Assembly (NCBI RefSeq): GCF_000165505.1
Contig: NC_014632.1
Span: 620,001 to 684,000, forward strand
Length of the DNA stretch: 64,000 nucleotides
Direction of reading: 5' to 3'
From: Ilyobacter polytropus DSM 2926
GTDB lineage: Bacteria > Fusobacteriota > Fusobacteriia > Fusobacteriales > Fusobacteriaceae
Below the pieces are notes generated by a model. It was not told the DNA's origin, ran no database searches, and worked only from the letters and a program-made list of their open reading frames with translations. A program made the position numbers and the translations under genes. Below, piece after piece: positions 37,944-41,491 of this stretch. Every line of letters begins with the position of its first letter. Positions within the stretch are counted from its first letter, which is position 1.

Positions 37944-38534
37944 ATGAACATTAAACAAGCGGATTATGTAAAATCAGCTGTATTTGAAAAAGATTACCCA
38001 GAGGAAGTGGCTTCTTATGAGTTTGCATTTGTAGGAAGATCGAATGTAGGGAAATCTTCGCTAATAAACAGTATAACAGGCAGAAGGAAACTGGCCAAAA
38101 CGAGTAAAACACCTGGAAGGACTCAGCTTATAAATTATTTTATTATAAATAAAGAGTTCTTTTTTGTAGATTTACCTGGATATGGTTTTGCAAAGGTTCC
38201 TAAGATCATGAAAGAAGAGTGGGGAAAAACTATGGAAACATATTTGGCCTCAGCCAGACAAAAGTTGGTTTTTGTGCTGTTGGATATAAGAAGAATACCA
38301 AGTGAAGATGACATCAATATGCTAAAATGGCTAGAACACTATGAAATTCCATTTAAGATTATTTTTACAAAGGTAGATAAACTTTCTAATAATGAAAAGT
38401 TTAAAAATTTAAAGAATATAAAGAAAAAACTTGTATTTGACAATTCAGATGTCTTTTTTCATTCAGCTCTCAATCACACAGGTAAAGAGGAGATATTGAA
38501 TTACGTGGAAACAGTTCTGCAAAATGGGATATAA
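37944..38534 (+). CDS. engB: Ribosome-biogenesis GTP-binding protein EngB/YsxC
   Basis: 196 residues. Essential GTPase acting in 50S assembly. FVGRSNVGKSSLINSITGRR (G1), TPGRTQLINYF (G2), DLPGYGFA (G3) and FTKVDKLS (G4) are complete. It stands directly behind lon, a gene pair common in many phyla. Followed immediately by the valS promoter. Confidence 0.97.
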   Translation: MNIKQADYVKSAVFEKDYPEEVASYEFAFVGRSNVGKSSLINSITGRRKLAKTSKTPGRTQLINYFIINKEFFFVDLPGYGFAKVPKIMKEEWGKTMETYLASARQKLVFVLLDIRRIPSEDDINMLKWLEHYEIPFKIIFTKVDKLSNNEKFKNLKNIKKKLVFDNSDVFFHSALNHTGKEEILNYVETVLQNGI

Positions 38535-38540
38535 AAGACT

Positions 38541-38568
38541 TTGAAAATATATAAAAATTTGATATAAT
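38541..38568 (+). promoter_or_regulatory. valS promoter
   Basis: TTGAAA (38541-38546), 16-base spacer, TATAAT (38563-38568). It starts 6 bases after the engB stop and would give a leader of about 260 bases before valS. Confidence 0.75.
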
Positions 38569-38621
38569 TGAAAAATAAAAAAGTTTATATTTCAATTTTA
38601 TTTAGAGAGGATATTAAAATT

Positions 38622-38669
38622 ATGCCTAAAAATAGAGTGGTCAAAGTCGTAGTAAAGCAAACAAGTTAA
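38622..38669 (+). CDS. valS leader peptide, 15 codons with five valines
   Basis: Reads MPKNRVVKVVVKQTS, with Val at positions 6, 7, 9, 10 and 11 (codons GTG, GTC, GTC, GTA, GTA). AGAGAGG lies at 38604-38610, 11 bases before the ATG. Five of 15 codons for the very amino acid charged by the downstream enzyme is the hallmark of ribosome-mediated attenuation. Its Val codon stretch GTCGTAG (38646-38652) can pair with CTATGAC (38684-38690) downstream. Too short for normal gene finding; not a known protein. Confidence 0.75.
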   Translation: MPKNRVVKVVVKQTS

Positions 38670-38736
38670 TATAACTGGGGTAGCTATGACTAGTGGTATA
38701 GTTAAATATCTAAAAGGCTTATAATTAGAGGTTTGT

Positions 38737-38780
38737 GCAGCTATCTTAGTGATTAAAGGACTAATAATAGCTGCTTTTTT
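38737..38780 (+). terminator. valS leader attenuator (terminator with competing antiterminator)
   Basis: GCAGCTAT (38737-38744) pairs with ATAGCTGC (38767-38774); an inner stem TTAGT/ACTAA stacks below, and six T follow. The upstream GGTAGCT (38679-38685) can instead pair with AGCTATC (38739-38745), which would destroy the terminator. Expected logic: stalling at Val codons frees the upstream strand and allows valS transcription. Confidence 0.75.
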
Positions 38781-38836
38781 ATTGCGGTGCACTAAGATAA
38801 AAGTTAAAATTATAATAAATTTCAGGAGGGACAGTA

Positions 38837-41491
38837 ATGGACGAGCTAAGTAAAATTTATTCTCCTAAGGAGATTGAGGATAAGTGGTATCAAGATTGGG
38901 AAAATAACGGATATTTTTCTGCCACAATGGATGAGGAAAAGCCAAATTATTCAATTGTAATCCCTCCGCCTAATGTAACAGGAATATTACATATGGGACA
39001 CGTACTAAATAACACTATTCAGGATACAATTATCAGATTTAAAAGAATGAGTGGTTATAATACTCTTTGGCAGCCTGGAACAGACCATGCCGGGATTGCC
39101 ACACAAAATAAAGTAGAAAGAAAACTAGCTGAACAGGGTCTTAAAAAAGAGGACCTGGGAAGAGAGAAATTTTTAGAAAAAGTCTGGGAATGGAAAGATG
39201 AGCACGGAGGACTTATAACAAATCAACTTAGAAAATTAGGAGCGTCACTTGACTGGGAAAGAGAAAGATTTACCATGGATGAGGGACTTTCAGATTCTGT
39301 AAAAGAGATATTTGTAAAGCTATATAATGACGACCTGATTTATCAAGGTGAGTACATGGTTAACTGGTGTCCTCGTTGTGGTACTGCTTTAGCTGATGAT
39401 GAAGTGGATCATGAAGAGAAAAAGGGAAGTCTATGGCATATAAAATATCCAATTAAAGATTCAGATGAAAATTTTGTCATAGCAACTACAAGACCTGAAA
39501 CAATGCTAGGAGATACAGGAGTAGCAGTAAATCCAGATGATGAAAGATATAAACATCTAATAGGGAAAACAGTAATTCTTCCGTTAGTTGGAAGAGAAAT
39601 ACCTATTTTTGCCGATGAATATGTGGATATGGAGTTTGGAACAGGTGTGGTAAAAATGACTCCGGCACATGATCCTAATGATTTTGAAATTGGAAAAAAG
39701 CATGACCTTGAAATCATAAATATTATGACAGAGGATGGAAAAATCAATGAGCTAGGAGAAAAATATCAGGGGCTCGATCGGTTTGAGGCAAGAAAAGCAA
39801 TAATAGAGGACTTGAAAACTAAAGGTATACTTGTAAAAACAGAGGAACATATTCATAAAGTGGGAGGATGCTACAGATGTGACACAGTAGTTGAGCCTAG
39901 AGTATCTAAGCAATGGTTTGTTAAAATGAAGCCCCTTGCTGAAAAAGCGCTGGAAGTAGTTAGAAATGGACAGGTAAAAATAGTTCCTAAAAGATGGGAA
40001 AAAGTTTATTATAATTGGCTAGAAAATATAAGAGACTGGTGTATATCAAGACAGATATGGTGGGGGCACAGAATACCTGCTTATTACGGTCCTGACAACC
40101 ATATGTTTGTAGCTAGAAATCCAGAAGAAGCTGCACAACAGGCAGAAGCACACTATGGGGAAAAAGTGAACCTGACACAGGAAACTGATGTGCTTGATAC
40201 TTGGTTTTCATCTGCCCTATGGCCTTTCTCTACTCTTGGATGGCCAGACAAGACTAAAGAATTGGAGATGTTTTATCCTACTGCCACTCTCGTAACAGGG
40301 GCAGATATACTTTTCTTCTGGGTAGCCAGAATGATAATGATGGGTCTTTATGAAATGGAAGAGATTCCGTTTGAGACTGTCTATCTTCATGGAATTGTAA
40401 GAGATGAAAATGGTAAAAAAATGTCTAAATCCCTAGGTAACTCACCTGATCCACTGAAATTGATAGATGAATACGGTGCAGATGCCATAAGATTTACAAT
40501 GCTATACAATACATCTCAGGGACAGGATGTACATTTTTCTGAAAAACTAATTGAGATGGGTAGAAATTTTGCCAATAAAACTTGGAATGTGTCAAGATTC
40601 GTACTTATGAATCTTGAAGGTTTCGATATAAAATCAGTGGGAAAAAATGAACTGAAGCTTGAATTGGTAGACAAATGGATATTCTCAAAATTCAACAAAA
40701 CTGCAAAGGATGTGGCTGCAAAATTAGATAAAAACACTCTAGATGAAGCTGCTAAGTCTGTGTATGAATTCTTGAGAGGGGATTTCTGTGACTGGTATGT
40801 AGAGATGGCTAAGGTGAGACTTTACAATGCAGAAGATGAAGTTTCAAAAAAGACAGCCCAATATGTACTGTGGACAATTTTAGAATCTTCTCTTAGACTG
40901 CTTCATCCTTTCATGCCTTTCTTAACAGAAGAGATATGGCAAAAGCTAGGAGCAGAGGGAAAAACTATAATGCTTGAAAGTTTCCCGCTATGCCAAGAGG
41001 AACTTGTAGATGAAGATGCCGAAAAAGCCTTTGAATATATTCAGACAGTGATATCTTCTGTAAGAAACATCAGGGCTGAAATAGGTATATCACCTGCTAA
41101 GCCGGTAAACATGATAGTGAGGACTTCTGATGCACTTGAATTAAAAGCCCTTCAAGATAATAGAGGCTTCCTTTTAAATCTGGCTAAACTTGAGACTCTA
41201 GAAGTTGGTGAAAATCTTGAGAAACCTAAACAAGCTGGATTCAGAGTTGCAAAAAATTCTGAATTATATGTTCCTTTGACAGGTCTTTTAGATTCTGAAG
41301 CAGAGATAAAAAAAATAAATGTGCAGATGGAAAAAATACAAAAAGACCTTGATAAAGTTACAGCAAAACTTTCGAATGAAAAGTTTACATCTAAGGCTCC
41401 TGCTCAGATAATTGAAAGAGAAAAAAGAATTCAAAAAGAATATCAGGATAAAATAGATAAACTTCAAGAAAACTTAAAAAACTTTTTATAA
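38837..41491 (+). CDS. valS: Valyl-tRNA synthetase
   Basis: 884 residues. Class I synthetase: HIGH-type HMGHVLNN near residue 52, WQPGTDHAGIATQ, the editing domain with IATTRPETMLGDTGVAVNP, WWGHRIPAYY, and KMSKSLGNSPDPL. The C-terminus ends in the valyl-specific coiled coil (KKINVQMEKIQKDLDKVTAKL onward). AGGAGGG precedes the ATG. Expression is probably controlled by the valine-codon leader upstream. A terminator follows. Confidence 0.98.
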   Translation: MDELSKIYSPKEIEDKWYQDWENNGYFSATMDEEKPNYSIVIPPPNVTGILHMGHVLNNTIQDTIIRFKRMSGYNTLWQPGTDHAGIATQNKVERKLAEQGLKKEDLGREKFLEKVWEWKDEHGGLITNQLRKLGASLDWERERFTMDEGLSDSVKEIFVKLYNDDLIYQGEYMVNWCPRCGTALADDEVDHEEKKGSLWHIKYPIKDSDENFVIATTRPETMLGDTGVAVNPDDERYKHLIGKTVILPLVGREIPIFADEYVDMEFGTGVVKMTPAHDPNDFEIGKKHDLEIINIMTEDGKINELGEKYQGLDRFEARKAIIEDLKTKGILVKTEEHIHKVGGCYRCDTVVEPRVSKQWFVKMKPLAEKALEVVRNGQVKIVPKRWEKVYYNWLENIRDWCISRQIWWGHRIPAYYGPDNHMFVARNPEEAAQQAEAHYGEKVNLTQETDVLDTWFSSALWPFSTLGWPDKTKELEMFYPTATLVTGADILFFWVARMIMMGLYEMEEIPFETVYLHGIVRDENGKKMSKSLGNSPDPLKLIDEYGADAIRFTMLYNTSQGQDVHFSEKLIEMGRNFANKTWNVSRFVLMNLEGFDIKSVGKNELKLELVDKWIFSKFNKTAKDVAAKLDKNTLDEAAKSVYEFLRGDFCDWYVEMAKVRLYNAEDEVSKKTAQYVLWTILESSLRLLHPFMPFLTEEIWQKLGAEGKTIMLESFPLCQEELVDEDAEKAFEYIQTVISSVRNIRAEIGISPAKPVNMIVRTSDALELKALQDNRGFLLNLAKLETLEVGENLEKPKQAGFRVAKNSELYVPLTGLLDSEAEIKKINVQMEKIQKDLDKVTAKLSNEKFTSKAPAQIIEREKRIQKEYQDKIDKLQENLKNFL

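Follow-up and report, generated by a model that had tools for sequence, protein, structure and literature searches.

A putative valine leader-peptide attenuator upstream of valS in Ilyobacter polytropus and related Fusobacteriaceae

Introduction

The region between engB and valS in Ilyobacter polytropus raises the question of whether the gene for valyl-tRNA synthetase is controlled by a leader peptide and, if so, what this leader senses. The trp, his, ilv and pheST leaders of enteric bacteria act by leader-peptide attenuation, and in Firmicutes the control of synthetase genes is dominated by T-boxes. Most known cases of leader-peptide attenuation come from Proteobacteria and Actinobacteria (PMC2965389), and a 2008 survey of T-boxes listed none in Fusobacteria/Thermotogae (PMC2494555).

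Results

Organization of the engB-valS region

The stretch of DNA analysed here, referred to as the window, comprises 64,000 nucleotides of contig C1 (2,046,464 bases) from a genome of 3,132,314 bases. The following elements were located in it, with coordinates counted from the first base of the window:

37944 to 38534, plus strand: engB, the upstream neighbour, outside the switch; not 5' of valS in genera g8, g10 and g14
38541 to 38568, plus strand: promoter TTGAAA-16-TATAAT with an extended -10 TG, matching the consensus at 11 of 12 positions
38604 to 38611, plus strand: ribosome-binding site of the leader ORF, AGAGAGGA; SD-like in 15 of 15 leader genomes
38622 to 38669, plus strand: leader ORF, MPKNRVVKVVVKQTS and stop, 15 codons including 5 Val codons (38637-38642 and 38646-38654)
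38645 to 38652, plus strand: region 1, AGTCGTAG, within the Val codons; partner at 38684-38691
38679 to 38691, plus strand: region 2, GGTAGCTATGACT; 38684-38691 pairs with region 1 and 38679-38685 with region 3
38739 to 38745, plus strand: region 3, AGCTATC, which pairs with region 2 in the antiterminator and shares bases with the 5' arm of the terminator
38737 to 38774, plus strand: intrinsic terminator hairpin (3:4), GCAGCTAT/ATAGCTGC, arms at 38737-38744 and 38767-38774, inner stem TTAGT/ACTAA
38775 to 38780, plus strand: U-tract of the terminator, TTTTTT; a U-run follows the hairpin in all relatives
38824 to 38830, plus strand: ribosome-binding site of valS, AGGAGGG
38837 to 41491, plus strand: valS, valyl-tRNA synthetase, the proposed regulated gene

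These elements agree with a preliminary description of the locus, which had named a TTGAAA-16-TATAAT promoter, had counted five Val codons in a 15-codon ORF, and had identified the six T after the GCAGCTAT and ATAGCTGC arms. The pairing that it gave for 2:3, GGTAGCT (38679-38685) with AGCTATC (38739-38745), is present as described, and that given for 1:2, GTCGTAG (38646-38652) with CTATGAC (38684-38690), could be extended to 8 bp (AGTCGTAG/CTATGACT). The terminator hairpin of the window has a predicted energy of -13.4 kcal/mol. Region 3 overlaps its 5' arm, and antiterminator and terminator are mutually exclusive.

The arrangement suggests the following mechanism. Transcription would begin from the 38541-38568 promoter, with a ribosome following to translate the 15-codon leader. 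With Val-tRNA plentiful, the ribosome would clear the Val codons and reach the stop, so that region 2 would be either masked or engaged with region 1. This would leave region 3 free, and the 3:4 hairpin would form and end transcription before valS. With Val-tRNA scarce, the ribosome would stall on the Val codons and hide region 1, so that region 2 would pair with region 3, the terminator would be blocked, and read-through would allow valS to be transcribed as a response to the shortage. We regard it as very probable, from sequence and comparison, that the valS leader is such a ribosome-mediated transcription attenuator sensing charged tRNA-Val.

Valine content of the leader ORF

When both strands of the 64-kb window were scanned for ATG ORFs of 8 to 30 codons with at least 5 Val codons and at least 30% Val, the valS leader was the sole ORF retrieved. 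In random sequence with matched dinucleotide make-up, the chance of such a Val-rich ORF was 4e-4 to 6.5e-4 per 268 nt, and 5e-5 if an SD-like site was also required. The Val count was not extreme by composition alone, as 5 Val in 14 codons failed P<1e-3. The GTC codon, which makes up 8% of the Val codons in the genes of the window, was found in 15 of 15 valS leaders (38640-38648 in the window), so the sensor may favour a tRNA-Val that reads GTC.

The folding energy of the whole leader of the window was likewise unexceptional with respect to shuffles (z = -0.83). With these modest statistics for both Val composition and folding, the case for the leader rests on comparison, and the comparative evidence described below puts it far beyond chance at the level of sequence.

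Conservation of the valS leader in relatives

A valS-like match was found in 96 of 96 genomes of the order, and 90 loci with a valS start were examined. A promoter, an SD-preceded Val-rich ORF and a terminator preceded valS in 15 of the 96 genomes, belonging to four genera of the family, and the leader was present in all the sampled members of each genus (3/3 in g1, 8/8 in g14, 2/2 in g10 and 2/2 in g8). The leader peptides of these relatives were MLKNRSVTVVVEQTS in g1, MIEFLAVVKVVKNNILFLK in g8, MLKVVEVRRNSKTI and MLRLVEVRRRLKTI in g10, and MKRVEVKVNHILIKLI plus variants in g14. Some leaders of g14 and g10 contain only two or three Val codons, and one g10 leader combines only two with a weak 2:3 pairing. 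When the 90 valS loci were scanned without regard to the identity of the amino acid, Val gave the top signal (14 loci in four genera, g1, g8, g10 and g14), followed by Ile (7 loci, one genus) and Lys (6 loci, three genera), both of which arose from the same ORFs as Val, and by Arg and Leu with one locus each.

The leader sequence has strongly diverged between genera, with the ORF, its Val codons and the terminator persisting. The other two g1 genomes show the promoter with unchanged hexamers and spacing, and TTGACA-type sites occupy the equivalent position in the other leader-bearing genera; overall, promoter-like sites are no denser in the region than expected by chance (5 observed, 4.4 expected). 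The Val-rich ORF and the alternative pairing, whose absence from related genomes had been proposed in the preliminary description as evidence against an attenuator, both precede valS in the 15 genomes of four genera. Comparison thus supports the interpretation as an attenuator, with Val-rich leader, terminator and alternative pairings kept across the four genera.

The gene located 5' of the valS leader varies among g14 species, and it is not engB in g8 and g10. As the upstream gene changes and the leader stays, the leader unit belongs to, or travels with, valS. These data also bear on a simpler reading, in which the engB operon ends in an ordinary terminator before valS and the small ORF between them arose by chance, as might be thought from the position of the element directly after engB in the window and from the frequency of promoter-like sites in this AT-rich DNA. 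However, the strongest promoter candidate precedes the terminator, the Val-rich ORF with its SD recurs in four genera, and engB is not upstream in three of the four leader genera, making a plain engB terminator a very improbable explanation compared with an attenuator of valS.

Most genera of the family lack the valS leader; there, valS directly follows engB at a distance of 0-45 bases, too short to accommodate one. On the ValS tree, whose backbone is weakly supported, the presence and absence of the leader needs four changes, and a single origin followed by losses is possible. When a covariance model built from the valS leaders was run on this genome, it recovered the valS leader. Four weaker matches of this model in the same genome were discarded as plain terminators by their look.

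Upstream of the g10 valS leaders (L016 and L036), the neighbouring gene encodes a BrnQ-like branched-chain amino acid transporter, as judged by eye from its translation.

RNA pairings and folding

When the duplexes of the window leader were compared with shuffles, 1:2 was matched by 4.2% of them and 2:3 by 1.4%. The 1:2 pairing was present in all 15 leaders, in differing registers (that of the g14 leaders is unlike that of g1 and g8), and was equalled by no more than 5% of shuffled spacers in 6 of 15. The 2:3 duplex stayed within this limit in 13 of 15 leaders, related leaders not being independent; in g10, this pairing was pairable in L016 and weak in L036.

Covariation was assayed on a gap-free alignment of the helix arms from g1, g8 and g14. 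In it, the helix of the terminator was 100% paired, with two compensated pairs across these genera, and its covariation score was reached by 3 of 500 shuffles. The antiterminator 2:3 was pairable in 100% of cells with three varying pairs, and its covariation was within the shuffle range. The last pair of the 1:2 helix changes from G-C in g1 to A-U in g8, giving one compensated pair, and the region 2 motif [AG][AG]TAGYTATGRYT is conserved in the three genera.

The effect of ribosome position was followed in folds of the nascent RNA, with the antiterminator value defined as the extent to which upstream sequence binds the terminator's 5' arm. For the window leader, this value was 0.86 with the ribosome on the Val codons versus 0.63 when unstalled or at the stop. 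The stalled value was higher than the unstalled one in 8 of the 8 leaders tested, with differences ranging from 0.03 (L006) to 0.53 (L016); compared with shuffled spacers, the effect was at the 5% level or better in 4 of 8. In equilibrium folds in which the 3' arm of the terminator had been made, the terminator won nearly always, whatever the position of the ribosome; therefore, the decision of the switch would have to be kinetic, which is usual for attenuators.

Taken as a sequence, the valS element looks like a classic leader-peptide attenuator and should work like one; the sequence-level features of this class are present, the 1:2 pairing being the least certain of them.

A perfect 10-bp inverted repeat, TATCTTAGTG/CACTAAGATA, was also detected at 38742-38751 and 38790-38799, joining the 5' arm of the terminator to a stretch past the U-tract; the sister genomes keep only TATCTTA/TAAGATA.

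Absence of a T-box at valS and presence of T-boxes elsewhere

The T-box covariance model (RF00230) was silent at the valS locus, both at the Rfam gathering cut-off and at E<=1, and it did match elsewhere in the genome; T-box identity was consequently rejected for the valS leader. The two T-boxes detected were:

L173:1648-1895 and L173:3581-3810, contig G000:C2: T-boxes, E ~1e-12, below the Rfam curated cut-off

They precede an asparagine synthase-like gene (asnB) and an asparaginyl-tRNA synthetase-like gene (asnS), named from reading their translations. Hence, the earlier statement that no T-box motif is seen holds for the valS locus but does not extend to the genome as a whole.

The fact that the regulated gene is a synthetase, in a genome where T-boxes precede asnB and asnS, could suggest direct binding of tRNA-Val or ValS to the leader RNA, by a T-box-like mechanism or by autoregulation like that of E. 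coli thrS, the ORF being incidental. We consider this highly unlikely, as relaxing the threshold to E<=1 still gave neither a T-box nor any other Rfam match there, and it is the ORF, the Val codons and the terminator that persist between genera while the leader sequence diverges.

Cognate leaders upstream of other synthetase genes

Leaders rich in the cognate residue were also found upstream of three other synthetase genes of this genome:

approximately 1809550 to 1809800 of G000:C1 (L202/L206), minus strand: thrS leader, MLYGVFFDTTTTLTNK and stop, 5 Thr codons
same leader, minus strand: thrS leader terminator, GGCCATCTGG..CCAGGTGGTC followed by T6
5' of tyrS (1890237 to 1891097 of G000:C1; L257), minus strand: tyrS leader, MNRKINYNGYYYYYH and stop, 6 Tyr codons, then a terminator; search confined to this genome
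5' of trpS (1660696 to 1661511 of G000:C1; L258), plus strand: trpS leader, MLSFNKNNKNWIHWWF and stop, 3 Trp codons; search confined to this genome

Thr-rich leaders preceded thrS at 13 of 50 loci in five genera (g1, g9, g11, g13 and g14). The distance from the start of the tyrS leader to the tyrS ATG is 197 nt, and the trpS leader shows a strong 1:2 pairing, a 2:3 pairing, the terminator CCCCGTGG..TGCGGGG followed by T6, and a weak SD. From these features, thrS, tyrS and trpS of this genome appear to carry the same design as the valS leader. No cognate leader was found in this genome before leuS, ileS, metS, cysS, serS, proS, hisS or pheS.

The identity of the residues is relevant to the signal that is sensed. 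Whatever its signal, a leader of this kind would make read-through depend on translation. One proposal is that short leader genes with reinitiation increase expression (PMC4833913), and the two or three Val codons of some g14 and g10 leaders would fit a sensor of general translation (ribosome loading, reinitiation or energy state) instead of Val-tRNA. Nevertheless, in every case looked at, the residue matches the synthetase: the valS leaders of four genera are rich in Val and the thrS leaders of five genera in Thr, and the tyrS and trpS leaders are rich in Tyr and Trp, so that general sensing seems improbable and the charging of tRNA-Val is the preferred signal.

Comparison with known systems

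In E. coli pheST, with its pheM leader, a synthetase gene is placed under a cognate-rich leader peptide with competing pairings and an intrinsic terminator. By description, the valS leader has the same design, with Val instead of Phe, in front of another gene, and in the phylum Fusobacteriota. It also resembles T-box leaders (RF00230), which respond to the charging of tRNA and govern synthetase genes through termination or antitermination, but it contains a sensor ORF and gives no T-box match.

Two further cases involve synthetase-family genes. The uORFC-8-2 motif before cysS in Rhodobacterales contains a leader ORF with cognate codons, for which ribosome-mediated attenuation was proposed from comparison only (PMC8632094); like the valS leader, it joins a synthetase gene to a cognate-codon leader ORF, the residue being Cys and the hosts alphaproteobacteria. 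In bacilli, a group also using T-boxes, His leader peptides precede the hisS*/hisZ paralogues (PMC2965389). These are likewise examples of synthetase-family attenuation alongside T-boxes outside Proteobacteria and Actinobacteria, but they concern His and duplicated genes of Firmicutes, whereas valS is a single gene.

In the accessible part of the uORFC-8-2 study, which included a Fusobacteria genome, no mention of a valS, thrS, tyrS or trpS leader was found (PMC8632094). In the papers searched, no leader-peptide attenuator of these four genes in Fusobacteriota was found; an earlier prediction may be contained in the work of Lopatovskaya et al. (2010), which deals with the attenuation of aminoacyl-tRNA operons. 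The kind of system is known, and it is for the gene valS and for this phylum that no report was found.

The presence in one genome of four synthetase genes with putative leader-peptide switches, together with T-boxes, suggests that two sensors can share out the synthetase genes. Synthetase leader-peptide attenuators (at least those of valS, thrS, tyrS and trpS) plus a few T-boxes might constitute the main means of sensing tRNA charging in part of the Fusobacteriaceae, the valS one having been lost in Fusobacterium-like genera when valS joined the engB operon; we hold the arguments for and against this proposal to be evenly balanced. The set of leaders offers a tractable case for studying the origin, movement and loss of such switches, and their presence or absence beside the engB-valS linkage provides a natural experiment.

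In g25, a genus of another family, the region upstream of valS (L054, L057 and L059) lacks a Val ORF and consists of a promoter-led stretch of about 300 nt with a hairpin, for example CCGGCGG..CCGCCGG.
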